This document shows positions 5,719 to 24,273 of a DNA stretch of 24,294 nucleotides, one piece after another. Every line of letters begins with the position of its first letter. The first letter of the stretch is position 1. The translations under genes were made by a program, and so were the position numbers. Below the pieces are notes generated by a model, which saw only the letters and a list, made by a program, of their open reading frames with translations, made no database searches and was not told the origin of the DNA. Source of the stretch: a virus; IMG/VR virus record IMGVR_UViG_3300005511_000085, positions 1 to 24,294 of that record. One strand, given 5' to 3'.

Positions 5719-6915
5719 ATGCCCACCGAATACCACCACGGCGTACGCGTTTTCGAAGTCGACGAAGGCGGCGCCACCATCCGTGTCGTCAGCACAGCCA
5801 TCATCGGTCTGGTGGCGACCGCGCCCGACGCCGACGTCGACGCCTTCCCGCTCAACACGCCCGTGCTGCTCACGAACCCCGCCGGCAGCGTGGGCAAGGC
5901 CGGCGCGTCCGGCACGCTCGGCCAAGCGCTGAAGGCAATCGGCCAGCAAGCCCAGGCCATCACCGTCGTCGTGCGCGTCGAGCCTGGCGTCGACGATGCC
6001 GCGACCACCAGCAACGTGATCGGCACGACCACCGCCAACGGGCAGAAGACCGGCCTGCAGGCGCTGCTCGCTGCGCAGGGTCAGCTGGGCGTGAAGCCGC
6101 GGATCATCGGCGCGCCGGGCCTGGATACCGAAGCGGTCGCCATCGAGATCGGCACCGTCGCCGAACAGCTGCGCGGCTTCGGATACGTGGCCGCGCGCAA
6201 GGCTGACGGCATGGCCTATGCGACCAAGAAGGAAGAAGCCACCACCTACCGAGCGAAGTTCGGCAAGCGTGAGCTGATGGTCATCTGGCCGAACTTCCTT
6301 GCATGGAACATCACGACCAACGAGGCCGACCCGGTGCCGGCCACCGCCTACGCGCTCGGCCTGCGCGCGAAACTCGACCAGCAGATCGGCTGGCACAAGA
6401 CGCTGTCCAACATCGTCGTGAACGGTCCGCAGGGCCTGACGGCCGACGTGTTCTTCGATCTGCAGAGCCCGAGCAGCGACACGACGTACCTCAACGCCCT
6501 CGAAGTCACCACGATCATCAACCGCAGCGGATACCGCTTCTGGGGCAACCGCACCACCGAGGCGCAGGGCGGGAAGTTCTTCTTCGAGAACTACACGCGC
6601 ACCGCGCAGGTGCTCGCGGACACGATTGCGGAAGCGCATTTCACGTTCGTGGACAAGCCGATGCACCCGAGCCTGGTGAAGGACATGCTCGCCAGCATCA
6701 ACGCCAAGGGCCGCGACCTCGTGATCGGCGGCTATCTCATCGGCTTCGAGGCGTTCCTCAATCCGGACCTGAACCCGAAGGAAGAACTGGCCCAGGGCCG
6801 TCTGCGCATCAGCTACCGCTACACGCCAGTGCCGCCGCTGGAAGACCTGGGCTTCAACCAGTCGATCACCGACGACTTTCTCGCCAACTTCGCCGCGGCC
6901 GTGCAGGCCGCCTGA
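5719..6915 (+). CDS. FI: Major tail sheath protein FI
   Basis: A 398-aa protein, nearly identical in length to P2 gpFI (about 396 aa), of the contractile tail sheath family. It begins MPTEYHHGVRVFEVDEGG and contains typical sheath text: IRVVSTAIIGLVATAPDAD, the central FLAWNITTNEADPVPATAYALGLRA region, GYRFWGNRTT, and the C-terminal RLRISYRYTPVPPLEDLGF. Many copies surround the tube and contract at infection. The start has a clear ribosome-binding site (CGGAGA about 8 bases upstream), unlike most genes in the operon, in keeping with high production. It is followed by FII after 33 bases. Confidence 0.97.
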   Translation: MPTEYHHGVRVFEVDEGGATIRVVSTAIIGLVATAPDADVDAFPLNTPVLLTNPAGSVGKAGASGTLGQALKAIGQQAQAITVVVRVEPGVDDAATTSNVIGTTTANGQKTGLQALLAAQGQLGVKPRIIGAPGLDTEAVAIEIGTVAEQLRGFGYVAARKADGMAYATKKEEATTYRAKFGKRELMVIWPNFLAWNITTNEADPVPATAYALGLRAKLDQQIGWHKTLSNIVVNGPQGLTADVFFDLQSPSSDTTYLNALEVTTIINRSGYRFWGNRTTEAQGGKFFFENYTRTAQVLADTIAEAHFTFVDKPMHPSLVKDMLASINAKGRDLVIGGYLIGFEAFLNPDLNPKEELAQGRLRISYRYTPVPPLEDLGFNQSITDDFLANFAAAVQAA

Positions 6916-6948
6916 TCGACCTCACCACACATCGCATAGGAGCACACC

Positions 6949-7470
6949 ATGGCCCTGCCCAAGAAACTCAAGAACTTCGCCCTCTTCGGCGACGGGGAAA
7001 CGTGGGTCGGAGAGATCCCCAGCGTCACCCTTCCCACCATCGCCAAGAAGACGGAGGAATACCGCGCCGGCGGCATGCACGGCCCCGTCGAGATCGACCT
7101 CGGCCACGAAAAGCTCGAGCTGAAGCTGAAGTCGGGCGGCCTCAAGGTCGCGCTGATCGCCATGCTGGGCAGCCAGGCCGTGGGCACCAACGTGTTCCGC
7201 TTCGCGGGCGCTTATCAGGAAGACGCCACCGGCGCCGTCACCGCGGTGGAAGTCATCGCGCGCGGTCGCCTCAAGGAGTGGAACCCGAACGAAGCCAAGG
7301 CCGGCGACGACAACGACCACGACTTCACCGTCGCGCTCAGCTACTACAAGGTCACGGTCGACGGCGCCGACCTGCTGGAGATCGACGTGCCCGGCATGGT
7401 CTTCAAGGTTTCCGACAACGACATGTACAGCGCGATCCGCTTCGCCATCGGCCTCGCCGCGGCGCTGTGA
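6949..7470 (+). CDS. FII: Major tail tube protein FII
   Basis: A 173-aa protein (P2 gpFII about 172 aa) that forms the inner tube through which DNA passes. The family pattern is plain: LPKKLKNFALFGDGETWVGE at the start, LPTIAKKTEEYRAGGMHGPV, DLGHEKLELKLKSGG and the strand-rich C-terminus with IDVPGMVFKVSDNDMYSAI. It starts with the strong ribosome-binding site TAGGAG seven bases before the ATG and follows the sheath gene, the usual pairing of the two most abundant tail proteins. About 60 non-coding bases separate it from E. Confidence 0.97.
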   Translation: MALPKKLKNFALFGDGETWVGEIPSVTLPTIAKKTEEYRAGGMHGPVEIDLGHEKLELKLKSGGLKVALIAMLGSQAVGTNVFRFAGAYQEDATGAVTAVEVIARGRLKEWNPNEAKAGDDNDHDFTVALSYYKVTVDGADLLEIDVPGMVFKVSDNDMYSAIRFAIGLAAAL

Positions 7471-16921: not shown

Positions 16922-18964
16922 ATGCGTGTAGTCGCCTCCCGCCCAGCCAAGCCGGATCCAGTCTTCTGGATGCGGCGCCGCTCCAACCTGCCGCACGACC
17001 AGCATGTCGCCCAGGTCGCGCGGCTGATGGACGCTCGGATGCGCGGCGAGCTGCCTGCGCAGTGGGTGCCGGCGTTCGACATCATCATGCCGCTCAAGCC
17101 GACCGTGCGCGCCATCGGCGGCGACTGGCTGAGCTGGAACCTCGCGCGTGTCGACGCGATGCGTGCTTTCGAGCACGAGCACAAGGACATCCTGCACTGG
17201 GCGGTGGGCGACTCGGAGGTGTGCGCACGAGCCAGGCGGTGCGCGCGTGCGGTCGATGACATGCTCAACGGGCACCCCCTGCCCATGAGCACGCAGGACA
17301 AGCTCGATACCGTTCTCGACTACTGCGAGCGGCTGGATGTCGACAGGCCGGCCGCGAAGACGCCCGAAGGCGTGATCGCCCGTGCCATCACCGAGCAATG
17401 GTGGCGCCGCGCGCTGCGCCGCAAGGTTGCGCGCACTGTCGAGCATGCGGCCATCAAGCTGGCCGTCGTGCACCACAAGAACGGCGGCTATGCGAGCGAC
17501 GAAGCGTGCCGCCGCCGCGTCGACCAGAACAAGCGCAACAACGAGCTGCTGGCGCGCGTGAAGATGCGCAACGAGGCCGGCCAGGTCTACAGCCTGGCCG
17601 AGCTGGCGGCGCTGTCGCCCAGCAATCGCGACATCCGCCGCGGCGAGCTGATGACGCGCATTCGCGGCTGCGAGGAGTTCGCGGACGCCAATGGGCATCA
17701 CGGCCTGTTCCTTACGCTCACCTGCCCGAGTCGCTTCCATGCGGTGCTGTCCGGCGGTAAGTCGCGCTGGGCGAAGCCTGTGCGCAACGGCAAGTACGAA
17801 GGATCGACCCCGCGCGACGCGCAGCACTGGCTTTGCGGAAAGTGGGCGAAGGCTCGCGCGAAGATGGCCCGCAAGGGCATTGCGGCCTATGGCTTCCGCG
17901 TGGCCGAGCCGCATCACGACGGGTGCCCCCACTGGCACGCCCTGCTGTGGTTCCACACGCCCGAGCAGGCGCAGCAAGCGCGAGACATCATCAGCGGGTA
18001 CTGGCTGAGCGACGCGGGCGACGAAGCCGGCGCTGTGCGCAACCGCTGCAAGTTCATCGCCATGACGCGTGGCGGCGCCGCCGGCTACGTCGCGAAGTAC
18101 GTCGCCAAGAACATCGGAGCGGAGGATGGCGGTGACGCCGGCGTAGGCCAGCATACCGACACCATCGACGGCTTCGAGCACGTCATGGACACCCGCGAGT
18201 TCAAAGGGTGGCAGCGCGTCGACGCGTGGGCGAGCACCTGGGGAATCCGGCAGTTTCAAGCCATCGGGCAACCGAGCGTGACGGTGTGGCGCGAAATGCG
18301 CCGCGTCACGAAGGACCAGATCGAGCACGCGCAGATGCGCCTCGACCTCGGCGACGCCGCTGCGGTGAAGGCTTGGTGGGCGTGCCACAAGCAGGGCGCC
18401 ATTCAGGCCTCGTGGGAGGGCTACGTTCGCGCCCAGGGCGGCATGTGCCGCAAGCGTCGCGAATGGGCGCTGCGCACCGCCGTACGCGTCACTAAGGACA
18501 CGACCAACTGCTACGGCGAGGCCATCGACCGCAAGGCCGTCGTCGGCATCGAGACACGCGTCGGTCACTGGCTCGTAAGCCGCCGGCAGGCGTGGCGTTC
18601 CTGCGCGAGCGAAGCCGCGCAGGACAAGGGCCAGCGCGAAGCGCTGGGCCGCCCTTGGACTCGTTTCAATAACTGTACGGCCCGGCTCACCGATGAGCCG
18701 CAGCGCCTGCTCATGCGAGGCGATAGGCCATGGCCGAAGGCCCATGACAGCCTCGAAATCGAGCCACCGGAGCCGCGGCCAGCCGCCGCGACAGCCCCGG
18801 CCGAGCAGATCAACCACATCGCCGGCGAGCGGACCACGTTCCGCATGCCTGAGTGCGTCCAGATCGCGCCCGCCGCGCGCCCTGCCGACGACCTCGGCGC
18901 CCTGTTCGCCCGCATGAAGGCCTTCGCACCGCAGCTGCAAGCGCTGCGTGCCGCCGGCCGATGA
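16922..18964 (+). CDS. A: Replication initiator, rolling-circle endonuclease (P2 gpA-like)
   Basis: A 680-aa protein (P2 gpA about 761 aa) of the HUH endonuclease superfamily. All three motifs are present: motif 1 FLTLTCPS (residues 263-270); motif 2 PHHDGCPHWHALLW, with the metal-binding H337-W-H339; and motif 3 YVAKYVAKN, with the paired catalytic tyrosines Y389 and Y393 four residues apart, as in P2 gpA. It nicks its own origin, attaches covalently to the 5' end and starts rolling-circle replication; in P2 the nick site lies inside the A gene and gpA acts in cis. The N-terminal 260 residues are helical. The C-terminal 100 residues are Pro/Ala-rich and probably flexible. The stop overlaps the next start (ATGA). 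Confidence 0.95.
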   Translation: MRVVASRPAKPDPVFWMRRRSNLPHDQHVAQVARLMDARMRGELPAQWVPAFDIIMPLKPTVRAIGGDWLSWNLARVDAMRAFEHEHKDILHWAVGDSEVCARARRCARAVDDMLNGHPLPMSTQDKLDTVLDYCERLDVDRPAAKTPEGVIARAITEQWWRRALRRKVARTVEHAAIKLAVVHHKNGGYASDEACRRRVDQNKRNNELLARVKMRNEAGQVYSLAELAALSPSNRDIRRGELMTRIRGCEEFADANGHHGLFLTLTCPSRFHAVLSGGKSRWAKPVRNGKYEGSTPRDAQHWLCGKWAKARAKMARKGIAAYGFRVAEPHHDGCPHWHALLWFHTPEQAQQARDIISGYWLSDAGDEAGAVRNRCKFIAMTRGGAAGYVAKYVAKNIGAEDGGDAGVGQHTDTIDGFEHVMDTREFKGWQRVDAWASTWGIRQFQAIGQPSVTVWREMRRVTKDQIEHAQMRLDLGDAAAVKAWWACHKQGAIQASWEGYVRAQGGMCRKRREWALRTAVRVTKDTTNCYGEAIDRKAVVGIETRVGHWLVSRRQAWRSCASEAAQDKGQREALGRPWTRFNNCTARLTDEPQRLLMRGDRPWPKAHDSLEIEPPEPRPAAATAPAEQINHIAGERTTFRMPECVQIAPAARPADDLGALFARMKAFAPQLQALRAAGR

Positions 18965-20143: not shown

Positions 20144-20419
20144 ATGGCCTGCGCGATCGATCCCACCGGGCAGCAGCTGCGCGACGCGTGCGCTCGCATG
20201 TCGCGCCGCTTCGGTTGGGTCGAAAGCTTCGAGGCGGTGATGCAGGACGCCAGACGCAGCCGGCTCGTTCGGCTTGCCGTGGCTCACCCGAGCGCGGCCG
20301 AAACAGTAGTGCAGCGCCGGCGCATCGCCTCTGCGCGCCCAGTCCGGCCGACATCGGCCGCCGGCTCTCTTCCTCTTGACCGAAAGCGCGCCGCCGCGGG
20401 CGAGCGCGATGACGACTGA
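20144..20419 (+). CDS. Small phage protein, 91 aa, unknown
   Basis: A 91-aa protein beginning MACAIDPTGQQLRDACARMS, followed by a helical Arg-rich region (GWVESFEAVMQDARRSRLV) and a charged tail ending GERDDD. It is separated from the cysteine-cluster gene by 14 bases and overlaps the start proposed for the DUF4406 protein. No family recognised; last of the micro-gene chain. Confidence 0.55.
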   Translation: MACAIDPTGQQLRDACARMSRRFGWVESFEAVMQDARRSRLVRLAVAHPSAAETVVQRRRIASARPVRPTSAAGSLPLDRKRAAAGERDDD

Positions 20420-21131
20420 ACGACCTTTTTCCTCACAGCACCCAACCATGACAACACAAGCCTCCCCGCTCTTCATAGGTGTCGATCTCACGCGAGACAG
20501 CGACATCACCTTCAACCCGCCTCGCGCAGCCACACAGCGCGTCTACATCGCTGGTCCGATGACGGGCTATGCCGAGCTCAACTTCCCGGCCTTTCACGCC
20601 GAGGCGTCTACCCTGCGAGGCATCGGGCTCGACGTCATTAACCCGGCCGAGATCAATGTCGATCCCAGCACCGGCTGGAGCGCATGCATGCGCGCCGACA
20701 TAGCGCAGCTCGTGACCTGCCACCGCATCCACCTCTTGCCGGGCTGGTCGACCAGCAAGGGCGCTTCGCTGGAGCACCACATCGGCCGCGCGCTGGGCCT
20801 GCTGGTCACCCTGGCAGAAGGGGCCGAAAGCATGCCGGACCACTTCAGCTTCGCGGGAAGCGCTGACGCTTTCGTGAGCCAGTTCCTCAACCGCGCGGTG
20901 CAGGCCGCCGATGAGTCCGCTGACCAGGCGCCGGCGACCGTGACAAACGTCAGCCGCGAAGCTGCTCTCGCCATCTGCGAAAAGGTCGCGAACTACCACC
21001 AGGGGCAACTGCAGGCCGTGCTCGCTGCTCACGGATACCACACCACCGTCACGCAGGCCCACGGATACCAGTACCTCGGCGCACGTCGCTGCATCGAAGC
21101 GATTCGCGCGGCTGCGCGAGACGAGGCCTGA
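20409..21131 (+). CDS. DUF4406 (nucleoside deoxyribosyltransferase-like) protein with extra C-terminal domain
   Basis: A 240-aa protein. Residues about 44-132 form a DUF4406 domain, related to nucleoside 2-deoxyribosyltransferases: RVYIAGPMTGYAELNFPAFH, VINPAEI, SACMRADIAQLVTCHRIHLL and GWSTSKGASLEHHIGRALGL. E122 in the GASLEHH segment corresponds to the catalytic Glu of the enzyme family. Residues about 145-240 (from SMPDHFSFAG to the C-terminus) are an additional helical part not belonging to the domain. The start is uncertain: 20409 overlaps the preceding gene, while 20448 (MTTQASPLF) is an alternative. Activity on nucleotides is a family inference; many DUF4406 proteins are uncharacterised. 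Confidence 0.85.
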   Translation: MTTERPFSSQHPTMTTQASPLFIGVDLTRDSDITFNPPRAATQRVYIAGPMTGYAELNFPAFHAEASTLRGIGLDVINPAEINVDPSTGWSACMRADIAQLVTCHRIHLLPGWSTSKGASLEHHIGRALGLLVTLAEGAESMPDHFSFAGSADAFVSQFLNRAVQAADESADQAPATVTNVSREAALAICEKVANYHQGQLQAVLAAHGYHTTVTQAHGYQYLGARRCIEAIRAAARDEA

Positions 21132-21134
21132 GCG

Positions 21135-21446
21135 ATGCCGACGAAGTCTCTCAAGCTGTGCCCGCTCGCGCAGCACATCGTCAGGATGCTGGCCGAGTCG
21201 GGCCGGCCTGGCCACGGGCCGACATACGCCGTCAGCAAAGCTCACGAGTTGCATGCGCGACCCACGAGCGACGTACTGCTGTGGGTGGAGCACAACCTCG
21301 ACAGTTGGAATCGTGGCGAGCTCGCCGACACGCTCAAGAAGGCTTCGGGCCGCAATGTCGACACCCACGACCTTGCAGCCGCCGCGCGAGTTGAGAATGC
21401 ACTCGGTGCGCTTCCCAGGCTGAACCTGAAGGAACTGCTGTCGTGA
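21135..21446 (+). CDS. Small phage protein, 103 aa, unknown
   Basis: A 103-aa protein, MPTKSLKLCPLAQHIVRMLA onward, mainly helical, with ARPTSDVLLWVEHNLDSWNR and a Leu-rich end (PRLNLKELLS). It lies 3 bases after the DUF4406 gene and 10 bases before the PP-loop gene, so the three look like a unit. The N-terminal half could form a small winged-helix-like fold, but that is a guess. No family recognised. Confidence 0.6.
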   Translation: MPTKSLKLCPLAQHIVRMLAESGRPGHGPTYAVSKAHELHARPTSDVLLWVEHNLDSWNRGELADTLKKASGRNVDTHDLAAAARVENALGALPRLNLKELLS

Positions 21447-21456
21447 AGGCCGCTGC

Positions 21457-22548
21457 ATGAGCACCAAGCACGTCATTTCGGTTTCTGGCGGCAAGGACAG
21501 CACTACCACACTGCTGATTGCACTTGAGCGTTGCCCACGGGCCGACGTGGTGCCGATCTTCTGCGACACCGGCAACGAGCACGACGACACATACGCCTAT
21601 CTCGACTACCTCGAGCAAACGCTCGACATCAAGATCGAGCGCCTGAAGGCGGACTTCACAGCCCAGCTCGCGGCGAAGCGTGAGTTCATCGCGCGGGACT
21701 TGCGCACCCGCCGCGAATACGACACGCGTCCAGTGTTCGAGGCGGATGGCGTCACGCCGGTGCCGAAGCACGATGGCCGCGGCTGCATCGTTCTGAACAA
21801 GAAAGGCAAGCCAGTGCAGAAAACTGTGAAGGTCGGCGGCGGCCGGCGTGTGCGCTGGACCAACAAGGCCAAACGGCGCGCCTTGGCTGTCATGTACCCG
21901 AGCGGTAACCCGTTCCTGGACCTGTGTATGTGGAAGGGCCGCTTTCCCTCACGCACGGCCCAGTTCTGCACCGAGGAGCTGAAGACCAACATGGCGGTGG
22001 CCTTCCAGCTCGATCTGATGGAGGCCGGCCACCGGGTCATCTCGTGGCAGGGCGTGCGACGCGATGAATCGCAGAAACGCGCGGACGCCAAGCTCTACGA
22101 GCGCGTCGGCGGCGGCCTCTGGATCTTCCGCCCCATTGTTCTTTGGAACGCAGCCCAGGTCTTTGCCTTCAGCGCCGAGCGTGAGGTGAAGCCCAATCCC
22201 CTCTACCTGCAGGACATGAATCGCGTCGGCTGCATGCCGTGCATTAACTGCAGCAAGCCTGAGCTACGCGCCATCGCCGCCCGCTTCCCCGAGCATCCGC
22301 AGCGTATCGCCGAGTGGGAATACATCGTCGGCTGCTGCAGCAAGCGAGGTTTCTCCACCTTCATGGCGGACGCTCACCGTGCGAAAGACCGGCGCGCTGT
22401 CTTCGCTGATCTGAACATCTGGGCGCGCATCGAGTGGTCGAAGACCAGCCGCGGCGGCCGTCAATTCAACTTGCTCGACGCAGAAGAGAACACAGGTGCA
22501 GGCTGCAGCTCGAGTTATGGACTTTGCGATCAGGGAGCACTGGCATGA
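21457..22548 (+). CDS. PP-loop ATPase, PAPS-reductase-like (phage type, Cys-rich)
   Basis: A 363-aa protein of the phosphoadenosine phosphosulphate reductase (CysH/DndC-like) family. The PP-loop SGGKDST is at residues 10-16, the DTG of FCDTGNEHDD follows, then FCTEELK (C171), GVRRDES (199-205) and RPIVLWNAAQVF. Unlike CysH it has no C-terminal ECGxH signature. Instead it carries C259-x2-C262-x2-C265 (GCMPCINCSK), C293-C294 and further cysteines at the C-terminus, which could hold an Fe-S cluster as in DndC- and TtcA-type sulphur-transfer enzymes. It adenylates a substrate with ATP; whether that is sulphate, a nucleobase or DNA is unknown. It is coupled to the AlpA gene by an ATGA overlap. Confidence 0.88.
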   Translation: MSTKHVISVSGGKDSTTTLLIALERCPRADVVPIFCDTGNEHDDTYAYLDYLEQTLDIKIERLKADFTAQLAAKREFIARDLRTRREYDTRPVFEADGVTPVPKHDGRGCIVLNKKGKPVQKTVKVGGGRRVRWTNKAKRRALAVMYPSGNPFLDLCMWKGRFPSRTAQFCTEELKTNMAVAFQLDLMEAGHRVISWQGVRRDESQKRADAKLYERVGGGLWIFRPIVLWNAAQVFAFSAEREVKPNPLYLQDMNRVGCMPCINCSKPELRAIAARFPEHPQRIAEWEYIVGCCSKRGFSTFMADAHRAKDRRAVFADLNIWARIEWSKTSRGGRQFNLLDAEENTGAGCSSSYGLCDQGALA

Positions 22549-22796
22549 CCAATCACACTCACCAAAACTCGCGTCAGGCTACCAGCTCGTCGCCATTGAT
22601 TTACCGCCGCGACATCGTGCTCGCAAAATTCGGGATCTCCGAGACTACTTTGCGCCGATGGATGTCCTGCGAGCGATTCCCTCGTCCGCGACAGCTCGGC
22701 CCGCGCGCAGTTGGATGGGTAGCGGCAGAGGTCGACACCTGGCTCGATGAGCGCCCTGTGGCGACCGGCGCTGGGCCGAATCGAGACCAGGGCTAG
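22545..22796 (+). CDS. AlpA-family DNA-binding protein, probable excisionase
   Basis: An 83-aa protein with the AlpA/MerR-like winged-helix pattern: LIYRRDIVLAKFGISETTL, the recognition helix RRWMSCERFPRPRQLG, then VGWVAAEVDTWLDERP. AlpA proteins regulate prophage integrases and act as excisionases. It starts inside the stop of the PP-loop gene (22545-22548) and its stop (22794-22796) shares bases with the integrase stop on the other strand. The upstream in-frame ATG at 22434 lies inside the PP-loop gene and is rejected. Being the final gene of the early operon, it would be made on induction, when excision is needed. Confidence 0.85.
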   Translation: MTNHTHQNSRQATSSSPLIYRRDIVLAKFGISETTLRRWMSCERFPRPRQLGPRAVGWVAAEVDTWLDERPVATGAGPNRDQG

Positions 22797-24043
22797 GCCG
22801 GCTTCCGCCGGCGCCGCTGAGGCGTCAGTGCTGACGGTGCTTTTAGGCAGAAGTCGGCCCAGTTCTGCATCAGCGCCAGGCGTTTGGCAAGCATGTCGCC
22901 GCGTCGATAGGCAGCCTCGACCTTGTTGTCAATCGCGTGCGCGAGAGCCATTTCGGCCAGTTCAGGTGAATAGTGAGTGTGCTCGGCAGCCCAGTCGCGA
23001 AAGGTCGAGCGAAACCCGTGTGGCACGCACACCCGACCGCTGGCGTCCTTGAGGTTCAGTCGGCGCATGCACGCCGTCAACGACATGTCCGATAGCGGCT
23101 GCATCTTTCGGCCGGGAAAGATCAGGTCGCACCCTTCGTGGCGTGGCATTAATTTGATGAGGTCGACGGCCTGTTGTGACAGCGGCACCCTATGCGGCCG
23201 TTTCGCTTTCATGCGCTCCGCTGGAACATCCCACTGTCGCGCGTCGAGGTCCACCTCGGACCATCTCGCGCCGCGAATCTCGCCCGATCTGCCGGCCGTG
23301 AGCACCTGAAAGAGCAACGCCTGCGCGCTCACGCCGTCGATACCCTTGATTGCTGTCACCGCTGCTGCGGCCTGCGATACAGGCACCGCAGCGTGATGCT
23401 TCACCTTCGCGATCTTCTCGGGCTTAGGTAGCAGCTTGTCCAGATGACCACGCCACGCTGCCGGGTTTTCGCCTTGCCGGTGGCCTCGGGTCTTGGCCCA
23501 GTCAAGCACCTGCTCGATCCGGCCACGCAGTCGGCTCGCCGTTTCCGTCTTTGTTCGCCAAATAGGATCGAGCACGCGAAGCACTTCATCCTGTCCAATT
23601 TCGGCCACGTCCATGTGACCTATTAAAGGCTCGGCGTATTGCTTGAGCGTGTTCTCCCACTGCTGCCGGTGCTTGGGATTCAGCCACTCGCTTTCCTTTA
23701 CGGCGATGAACCTTTCGCATGCCACTTTGAACGTCAGCGCCCGTGCCTGCGAAGCTGCAGCAGCCTTTTTGAGCGCGTCGCGCGCCTCGATGGGGTCTTC
23801 GCCCGCGTCGACCAATTTGTGCGCCTCACGCGCGCGCTCGCGTGCCTGAGCTAGCGGCACGGCGGGAAAGCTACCCAACCCCATGCGCCTGCGCCGTGTG
23901 CCGATCTTGAAGCGCAAGATCCACGAGCGTGACCCCTCGATGATTTGCAGGTAAAGACCGGGGATGCCGCCAACGTTGTGGTCGCCCTCTTCCCTCAGTC
24001 GTCCAACCTCCATTGCAGACATTTCACGAGATCGCTTGGGCAT
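22793..24043 (-). CDS. int: Tyrosine-type prophage integrase
   Basis: A 416-aa integrase of the P4/DUF4102 type. The N-terminal arm-binding domain has YLQIIEGSRSWILRFKIG and MGLGSFPAVPLAQARERARE. The core-binding domain spans about residues 105-195. Catalytic residues of the family can be read: R252 (TAGRSGEIRGARW), K279, H342-x-x-R345 (PHGFRSTFRDW), H369 and the nucleophile Y379 (EAAYRRGD). AGGA lies 5 bases before the start. It is longer than P2 Int (about 337 aa), so the integrase module comes from a different lineage than the tail genes. It lies next to the 3' end of tRNA-Ser, its probable target, and converges with AlpA. Confidence 0.95.
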   Translation of the reverse strand: MPKRSREMSAMEVGRLREEGDHNVGGIPGLYLQIIEGSRSWILRFKIGTRRRRMGLGSFPAVPLAQARERAREAHKLVDAGEDPIEARDALKKAAAASQARALTFKVACERFIAVKESEWLNPKHRQQWENTLKQYAEPLIGHMDVAEIGQDEVLRVLDPIWRTKTETASRLRGRIEQVLDWAKTRGHRQGENPAAWRGHLDKLLPKPEKIAKVKHHAAVPVSQAAAAVTAIKGIDGVSAQALLFQVLTAGRSGEIRGARWSEVDLDARQWDVPAERMKAKRPHRVPLSQQAVDLIKLMPRHEGCDLIFPGRKMQPLSDMSLTACMRRLNLKDASGRVCVPHGFRSTFRDWAAEHTHYSPELAEMALAHAIDNKVEAAYRRGDMLAKRLALMQNWADFCLKAPSALTPQRRRRKPA

Positions 24044-24138
24044 CGCTTCCTACCGGCCATACAACAGGCCAAACCAAAAGCGCTTTCACGGTGTGTTACG
24101 GCTGCTCAGGGCGGCAGAGTATAGGCAGTTCTCCAATG

Positions 24139-24162
24139 AAAAACGCGCCCTGGGGCGCGTTT
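24139..24162 (-). terminator. Rho-independent terminator after tRNA-Ser
   Basis: AAACGCGCCC (24141-24150) and GGGCGCGTTT (24153-24162) form a perfect 10-bp dyad. Read on the minus strand the stem ends in a run of five T (24139-24143). It therefore terminates leftward transcription from the tRNA gene, before the integrase gene. It lies on the prophage side of the presumed att site, so it may be phage-supplied. Confidence 0.75.
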
Positions 24163-24185
24163 CGGCATCTTGAAAATGCTTGTCC

Positions 24186-24240
24186 TGGCGGAGAGTGTGA
24201 GATTCGAACTCACGGACGCTTTCACGTCGGCAGTTTTCAA
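24186..24240. other. Probable prophage attachment site within tRNA-Ser
   Basis: The integrase gene stands beside the 3' end of an intact tRNA-Ser, the standard arrangement for integrases that use a tRNA 3' half as attB. The core repeat must be within the tRNA 3' half; its exact ends cannot be seen because the matching copy at the other end of the prophage is outside the window. Confidence 0.55.
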
Positions 24241-24273
24241 GACTGCTGGTTTAAACCACTCACCCAACTCTCC
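24186..24273 (-). tRNA. tRNA-Ser (anticodon UGA)
   Basis: Read on the minus strand, an 88-base class II tRNA is complete. The acceptor stem GGAGAGT/ACTCTCC is 7 bp with discriminator G and encoded CCA. The anticodon arm is GCAGT-CTTGAAA-ACTGC, so the anticodon is TGA. The long variable arm is GACG-TGAAAG-CGTC, as in serine tRNAs, and the T arm is GTGAG-TTCGAAT-CTCAC. It decodes UCA. The host gene remains intact because the phage carries or restores the 3' part. Confidence 0.97.

Follow-up and report, generated by a model that had tools for sequence, protein, structure and literature searches.

The window (an IMG/VR record of 24,294 bases) is part of a P2-like prophage with tail and baseplate genes, and the genes considered here lie in its right part (Table 1). 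The gene under study opens at an ATG in the window ORF list and encodes a 363-aa PP-loop protein; the GAAGG located 7 nt 5′ of this ATG is plausibly its ribosome-binding site. Intergenic gaps of 3 and 10 nt separate, in this order, the DUF4406 gene, the gene of a 103-aa protein, and the PP-loop gene, and the ATG of the AlpA-like gene overlaps the stop codon of the PP-loop gene. Searched at E 0.01 against Pfam, PHROGs, and NCBIfam, the 103-aa protein had no match, and PADLOC gave a single weak one (E 0.038). A distance of 142 nt lies between the start of the integrase gene and the tRNA-Ser(TGA) gene, and this region (24043-24273) is a likely attachment site. The window further encodes an HNH_5 endonuclease domain (3.8e-12) and an Ogr/Delta-type regulator.

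Table 1 Features of the locus, with positions in the window unless another locus is named.
Feature	Position	Strand	Evidence or remark
P2-type replication protein GPA	16922..18964	+	Pfam, PHROGs; anchor for finding sister phages
DUF4406 / nucleoside 2-deoxyribosyltransferase-like protein, 251 aa, TTG start as listed	20376..21131	+	Pfam, PHROGs
103-aa protein	21135..21446	+	associated with DUF4406 rather than the PP-loop gene
PP-loop/PAPS_reduct protein, phrog_424, SspD-like sulfurtransferase candidate	21457..22548	+	Pfam, PHROGs, PADLOC, profile comparison
PP-loop SGGKDS, residues 10-15, ATP pyrophosphatase type	21484..21501	+	alignments
C157	21925..21927	+	present in 80/81 aligned proteins
C171 in FCTEELK; predicted Fe-S ligand	21967..21969	+	aligns with the Cys of WCT in SspD and DndC
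GVRRDES, residues 199-205	22051..22071	+	common to the CysH/DndC/SspD superfamily
C259-M-P-C262, predicted Fe-S ligands	22231..22242	+	aligns with the CxxC of SspD, DndC, and CysH
C350-S-S-S-Y-G-L-C357, C-terminal pair replacing CysH ECG(L/I)H	22504..22527	+	alignments
AlpA-like regulator	22545..22796	+	Pfam; listed ORF opens at GTG 22434
Tyrosine integrase, right border of the cargo slot	22793..24043	-	Pfam, PHROGs
tRNA-Ser(TGA)	24186..24273	-	tRNA annotation
DpdA-like genes	L004 4219-4971; L009 3408-4151; L023 5953-6855; L030 7088-7840		near the PP-loop gene

The PP-loop protein matched Pfam PAPS_reduct (3.7e-23), the match being split in two pieces, and phrog_424 (9.7e-62) over residues 2-361, which is most of the protein and makes it a member of that family. 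As dN/dS between the window gene and six relatives ranged from 0.07 to 0.26, the gene is real and under purifying selection. Orf84 of phage 186, a phrog_424 member with 41% identity to the window protein, is encoded in the early lytic operon directly before gene A and is recorded as non-essential and of unknown function, although gene A is recorded to depend on translation of orf84. Homologues at 67-69% identity are found in the Acidovorax phages Alfacinha1, Alfacinha3, and Acica, and all these phage proteins, Orf84 included, have the same loop and late cysteines as the window protein. In Alfacinha1 (L083, 5707-7086), the annotated gene begins about 100 codons before the stretch that matched (6001-7083), a possible start-site error. 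Searching viral contigs returned 288 relatives, from which 80 loci were kept as the viral family set, and the window protein was also matched by 35 phage and 37 plasmid records. Bacterial genomes gave 232 stretches with the family; 80 were kept as the genome family set, 41 of them in three bacterial families (Pseudomonadaceae, 19; Comamonadaceae, 14; Burkholderiaceae, 8). The family phrog_424 was already known and named, and what is new here is its placement among PP-loop enzymes. A passage of PMC11437467 voices a general suspicion that phage PAPS-type genes might be sulfurtransferases, and no published test of phrog_424 as a sulfurtransferase was found in the portions of the open-licence PMC literature covered here.

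SGGxDS is the mark of ATP pyrophosphatases, and the [4Fe-4S] cluster of APS reductases is held on CC and CxxC. Across 81 aligned family proteins, the loop residues S10, G12, K13, D14, and S15 were present in 80 or 81 and G11 in 65. C36 occurred in all 81 and C157, C171, C259, C262, C350, and C357 in 80 each; the cysteines C26 (38 proteins), C110 (1), C265 (20), C293 (4), and C294 (44) were not fixed. In a wider set (n = 61), C171, C259, C262, C350, and C357 were invariant and C157 was kept in at least 90%, and C36 is fixed near the window only, with Ala at its place in 18 of the 30 family rows of the tree set. The window protein ends in CSSSYGLCD, the usual ending of the family being C-S-S-x-Y-G-L-C-E, and lacks the CysH ending ECG(L/I)H. 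The initial annotation had described a protein that keeps the PP-loop and the core PAPS-reductase motifs and replaces the CysH ending by clustered cysteines, a description borne out by SGGKDS, GVRRDES, and the C350/C357 pair. The window form also has an insert of ~45 residues (about 87-131) that is missing from phage 186 and other short forms.

With the NCBIfam models of CysH/APS/PAPS reductases, the window protein scored far below the cut-offs (67.2 vs. 154 and 33.7 vs. 165.1 bits), which it missed as well for two further CysH-type models (44.2 vs. 235.3 and 29.3 vs. 254.2 bits) and for DndC (25.8 vs. 290.4 bits). The PADLOC SspD model matched it at 1.2e-21 (75.7 bits, where two SspD proteins scored 350 and 421 bits) and gave 1.3e-19 to 8.8e-31 for the five further family members that were scanned; the one CysH scanned did not reach 1e-3. 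A distinct group is formed by the loci L218, L219, and L220, which score 80-90 bits with the SspD model, have GGGVNS as their loop, and end in IPCxCYD. In profile-profile comparisons, built from 6 of 8 SspD, 7 of 10 DndC, and 8 of 17 CysH rows, the nearest profile to the family is that of SspD (E 4.1e-26, 199 columns, 32% identity), followed by DndC (E 4.7e-21) and then CysH (E 4.1e-19, 22% identity), these E-values varying with alignment depth, which was unequal among the three. The alignment with CysH stops at the CxxC, and that with SspD is the only one of the three to extend well beyond it, via a common K-E...PE...E stretch.

The same order emerged from the individual residues. K and D at the loop positions K13 and D14 were each found in 30/30 family rows, in 7/8 and 8/8 SspD rows, respectively, and in 10/10 DndC rows, as against 0/17 CysH rows, which agrees with the bit scores and with the earlier view that the protein is unlike an assimilatory CysH. 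C171 aligned with a Cys in 8/8 SspD, 10/10 DndC, and 13/17 CysH rows, as did C259 and C262. The eight SspD rows have five or six cysteines, arranged as a C, a CxxC, and a CxxC at the C-terminus, where 77-90 residues separate the first group from the second and 60-97 precede the last; the corresponding spacings of the window protein are 87 and 87. SspD and the window protein thus share SGGKDS followed by a C, a CxxC, and a C-terminal Cys pair in the same order, as well as CT..(L/M)K, GCxxC, and the K-E...PE...E stretch, but the tail spacing differs (six residues between the paired cysteines versus two in SspD), and the window protein has the extra C157. These SspD references are sound, since the flanking ORF scanned matched SspC in 8/8 loci. 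DndC also has SGGKDS, CT..(L/M)K, and GCxxC, but its rows show C-x10-C-x6-CxxC and no C-terminal pair, whereas the window protein has only C259 and C262 in that place.

CysH and APS reductases share with the window protein the fold, GxRRxxS, GCxPC, and a late Cys where C350 stands, and differ from it by a degenerate loop, a CC that usually stands where the window protein has CT, and the ECG(L/I)H end. C350 aligned in 17/17 CysH rows with the catalytic Cys of their ending and also in 8/8 SspD rows with a Cys, and C357 aligned with the CysH His in 17/17 rows, where SspD has a gap, so that the family tail could be an altered CysH tail. The model of BrxP, from type 4 BREX, matched the window protein too (1.3e-14), but the best stretch covers about 212-331 of 779 model positions, and the protein has no DUF4007 match in Pfam. 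Among its Pfam and NCBIfam matches there was no TtcA family; TtcA, named beside DndC in the initial annotation, is a member of another Pfam family.

A tree of 75 proteins, in which the long-branch rows L205, L233, L234, L237, and E. coli YbdN were left out, separated the family, SspD, and DndC from CysH and CysD with a support of 100/98 and joined the family to SspD alone at a weak 89/36. The phylogeny proposed in the initial annotation as a check therefore gave no clear grouping with CysH, but a clade of the family with CysH was not rejected by the AU test when forced (p 0.248), nor was one with DndC (p 0.53). Because the family forms a clade of its own and scores far below the SspD proteins, "SspD-like" designates a resemblance and an architecture, not membership. 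The four comparisons (NCBIfam, PADLOC, profile-profile, and cysteine order) point in the same direction, and an ATP-dependent Fe-S sulfurtransferase is fairly well supported as the candidate enzyme class. Judged by its sequence, the protein is probably a sulfurtransferase rather than an assimilatory reductase; the DndC-style enzyme suggested earlier holds insofar as the protein is nearer to SspD and DndC than to CysH, with SspD fitting better than DndC.

The AlphaFold model of the window protein had a pLDDT of 92.1 and a pTM of 0.85, but residues 331-363, including the C-terminal Cys pair, were modelled at low confidence, which leaves the location of C350 and C357 unsure. Its top matches among solved structures were APS/PAPS reductases (Z 14.7, rmsd 3.5 over 184 residues), other PP-loop enzymes following within about 4 Z units; the PP-loop tRNA thiolases TtuA and NcsA and the enzyme LarE were fold neighbours at Z 11.0-11.9. 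No SspD or DndC structure was among the 50 fold matches listed, and one SspD and one DndC searched by sequence against solved chains had no relative there, so the fold search, with no such relative to compete, does not discriminate SspD or DndC from CysH. A solved 270-aa PP-loop protein, PptA (PDB 21fy_C), matched the family profile in both halves (4.1e-6 and 1.8e-4), and further PP-loop proteins gave no match when searched by sequence against solved chains.

To place the gene in its phage context, 19 sister loci were retrieved with the GPA protein. DUF4406 was found in 17 of them, the 103-aa gene in eight, and the PP-loop gene in one (L360, GPA 66%). The content of the slot between DUF4406/103-aa and AlpA/integrase changes among these sister phages: by Pfam, it holds an N6/N4 methyltransferase (MTase) in L346, L348, and L355 and a C5 MTase in L349, L351, L352, and L357, with DUF4406 upstream in all seven and AlpA or the integrase at the right in five (not L348 and L351), and it is empty in L344 and L356. 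L354 contains a C5 MTase and no DUF4406 match, and the remaining GPA loci end early or have an unresolved slot content. In L343 (9336-10631) and L347 (9602-10861), the slot is filled by an ORF of 419-431 aa with no Pfam match above cut-off, a candidate for an unknown cargo gene. The PP-loop gene takes the place of an MTase in an exchangeable slot. The DUF4406 and 103-aa pair is conserved in this P2-like group (window, 20376-21446; L343, L344, L346, L348, L349, L351, L352, and L355), and, as it stays while the cargo changes, it belongs to the phage backbone.

This bears on the tight unit that the initial annotation had drawn from the PP-loop gene, the 103-aa gene, and DUF4406, with the latter two possibly supplying or acting on the same substrate. 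The short gaps are there, but the unit is not conserved: the 103-aa protein was beside the family gene in 1/81 loci, that of the window only, and the family gene was present in 0/80 loci anchored on DUF4406. A functional unit is contradicted by the sister phages, where the pair is kept with MTases instead. DUF4406 occurred in 9/80 viral and 7/80 genome family loci (16/160 together) versus 2/57 YbcO loci and, given the 0/80 in reverse, was rejected as a fixed partner of the family.

Within 1 kb of the family gene, 138 non-redundant loci (reduced from 169) contained 42 MTase ORFs, the number falling steeply with distance, and a C5 MTase was the commonest immediate neighbour by Pfam, upstream in 13 of the 125 loci and downstream in 6 of the 132 loci that yielded a candidate neighbour on that side. 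Per 100 kb, MTases within 1 kb amounted to 12.2 for the viral and 13.4 for the genome family loci, 8.5 for the DUF4406 anchors, and 18.7 for the YbcO anchors, a control in which 8/44 loci also contain the family; a specific link of the family to MTases was rejected on the basis of this control. The exchange with MTases in the slot suggests that the PP-loop gene is protective cargo, a reading tempered by the fact that such slots hold many things and that MTases are equally common beside a control early gene. Separately, DpdA-like (deoxypurine-in-DNA) genes lay near the PP-loop gene in 4/80 viral loci and in 0/217 loci of three other sets, numbers too small to rely on for an association.

A passage of PMC2920897 describes siphovirus-like prophages of Burkholderia in which an insertion hotspot is occupied by a PAPS gene and, in relatives, by other morons, among them a DNA methylase. 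The window is P2-like, and its likeness to these prophages lies in the slot exchange, whether or not their PAPS genes belong to phrog_424.

None of the 71 window ORFs matched the models of SspA, SspB, SspC, DndA, DndD, DndE, PglZ, BrxC, or BrxL. The locus therefore differs from SspD loci, which have SspC as a neighbour, from DndC systems with their DndD and DndE, and from the BrxP setting with PglZ, BrxL, and BrxC. Since PT systems have an ATPase and a DNA-recognition protein beside DndC or SspD, according to part of PMC12707154, a PP-loop enzyme on its own must rely on factors of the host or have a simpler target. The missing desulfurase is no obstacle, because IscS can donate sulfur in Dnd systems, where it can replace DndA (parts of PMC10853773 and PMC8569181).

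Host genomes were then considered. Seven of eight have a CysH of their own with ECG(L/I)H, and in the eighth, a Microvirga (G006), the family gene is the sole PAPS_reduct match. DndC was above cut-off in 7/50 host genomes versus 10/299 of a phylum sample (Fisher p 0.005), a post hoc comparison with small numbers and unmatched genome sizes, as a likely DndC had been noticed beforehand in two host genomes, one of which (G003) is within the 50. By NCBI family of the host, DndC was found in 3/6 Burkholderiaceae, 1/13 Pseudomonadaceae, 0/11 Comamonadaceae, and 3/20 of the remaining genomes. For Burkholderiaceae, the 3/6 hosts compare with 2/149 (p 0.0003); the sample of this family had DndC in 3/150, one of the three being a host, and that of Pseudomonadaceae in 1/119, this genome itself being a host. 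Among 117 Paraburkholderia genomes, four had DndC, seven had the family, and two had both (2/7 vs. 2/110, p 0.018, or p 0.15 without the centre genome of the sample). PglZ of BREX was found in 0/50 hosts and above cut-off in 2/150 of the family sample, so there is no evident sign that the hosts are rich in defence genes overall. Part of PMC8569181 states a general negative correlation between Dnd and prophages, so a positive link between DndC and the hosts was unexpected; the excess is a lead only and deserves a proper test. For co-occurrence of the family with dndC in an E. coli genome collection, the phage 186 gene (near mode) and one dndC (distant mode) were used as queries, and 0 records were matched.

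Taken together, we favour, at close to an even chance, a stand-alone phage sulfurtransferase with a PP-loop, SspD/DndC-like in type and closest to SspD, that would act on nucleic acid and would not be an assimilatory PAPS/APS reductase. Judging from the loop type, SGGKDS would bind ATP and adenylate an oxygen of the substrate, and C171, C259, and C262, which align with cysteines of DndC, SspD, and APS reductases, would hold a [4Fe-4S] cluster. Parts of PMC10853773 place the 4Fe-4S cluster of DndC on three cysteines, plus a Cys dyad, and a passage of PMC7188994 describes SspD as an ATP pyrophosphatase bound by SspA. By analogy with the SspA-SspD and IscS-DndC pairs, sulfur may pass from IscS or another cysteine desulfurase of the host to the cluster or to the C350/C357 pair and then be placed onto the activated substrate. 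Given the slot exchange with DNA methyltransferases, this substrate would be a nucleic acid, most likely the phage's own DNA, and the PP-loop gene might be one of several interchangeable protective cargo genes beside the integrase. A role in nucleic-acid modification, as put forward in the initial annotation, is a reasonable proposal. A more specific version, in which a partnerless SspD-type phage enzyme would use host IscS to introduce sulfur (phosphorothioate or thio-base) into phage DNA early, as an alternative to the slot MTase and preferentially in PT-policing bacteria, is unlikely as it stands.

Other explanations account for part of these observations. A genuine assimilatory PAPS/APS reductase, that is, an auxiliary metabolic gene feeding cysteine and methionine synthesis during infection, appears improbable with a score of 67 bits against a CysH cut-off of 154, an ATP-type loop, no ECG(L/I)H ending, and a host CysH in 7/8 genomes. 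It agrees with the database annotation as PAPS reductase, with the best fold matches, with the AU test, by which a CysH clade was not rejected (p 0.248), with C350 standing at the catalytic Cys of CysH and the retained GVRRDES and GCxPC, and with the Microvirga genome in which no other PAPS_reduct match was found; parts of PMC7785012, PMC9144972, and PMC2920897 read phage PAPS genes, which may or may not belong to phrog_424, in this way. The enzyme might also modify, for instance thiolate, tRNA or a free nucleotide rather than DNA, for example so that phage translation or nucleotide pools escape attack by the host. TtuA, NcsA, and LarE as fold neighbours would fit such a substrate, as would weak QueC matches (Pfam, 21.2 bits for a cut-off of 22; a QueC-like PHROG, 5.5e-4), the absence of a DNA-binding partner, and the deoxyribosyltransferase-like DUF4406 gene that adjoins in the window and recurs in family loci more than in YbcO loci (16/160 vs. 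2/57). We nevertheless consider this somewhat unlikely, as no RNA-binding domain was matched in Pfam, SspD and DndC are closer by sequence, and none of the sequence matches is a tRNA thiolase.

More improbable than either is a counter-defence role against host PT systems, whereby the protein would be a decoy for IscS or for a partner complex, or would let the phage pass as self. The DndC counts in hosts (7/50 vs. 10/299, p 0.005; Burkholderiaceae, 3/6 vs. 2/149, p 0.0003), the PglZ count that is not raised with them (0/50), and the contrast with the negative Dnd/prophage correlation stated in part of PMC8569181 speak for it, but the excess is post hoc with unmatched genome sizes, the genus check gives p 0.15 without the centre genome, Comamonadaceae hosts have 0/11, and a decoy would not need the conserved catalytic loop.

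The reading we favour would matter beyond this prophage. Parts of PMC7785012, PMC8879888, and PMC9144972 interpret phage "PAPS reductase" genes as sulfur assimilation. If the large phrog_424 family is indeed an SspD-type sulfurtransferase, this interpretation would be wrong wherever it covers phrog_424, and phage 186, whose Orf84 is recorded as non-essential, would offer a ready laboratory model to find out if phages can by themselves put sulfur into DNA or RNA.
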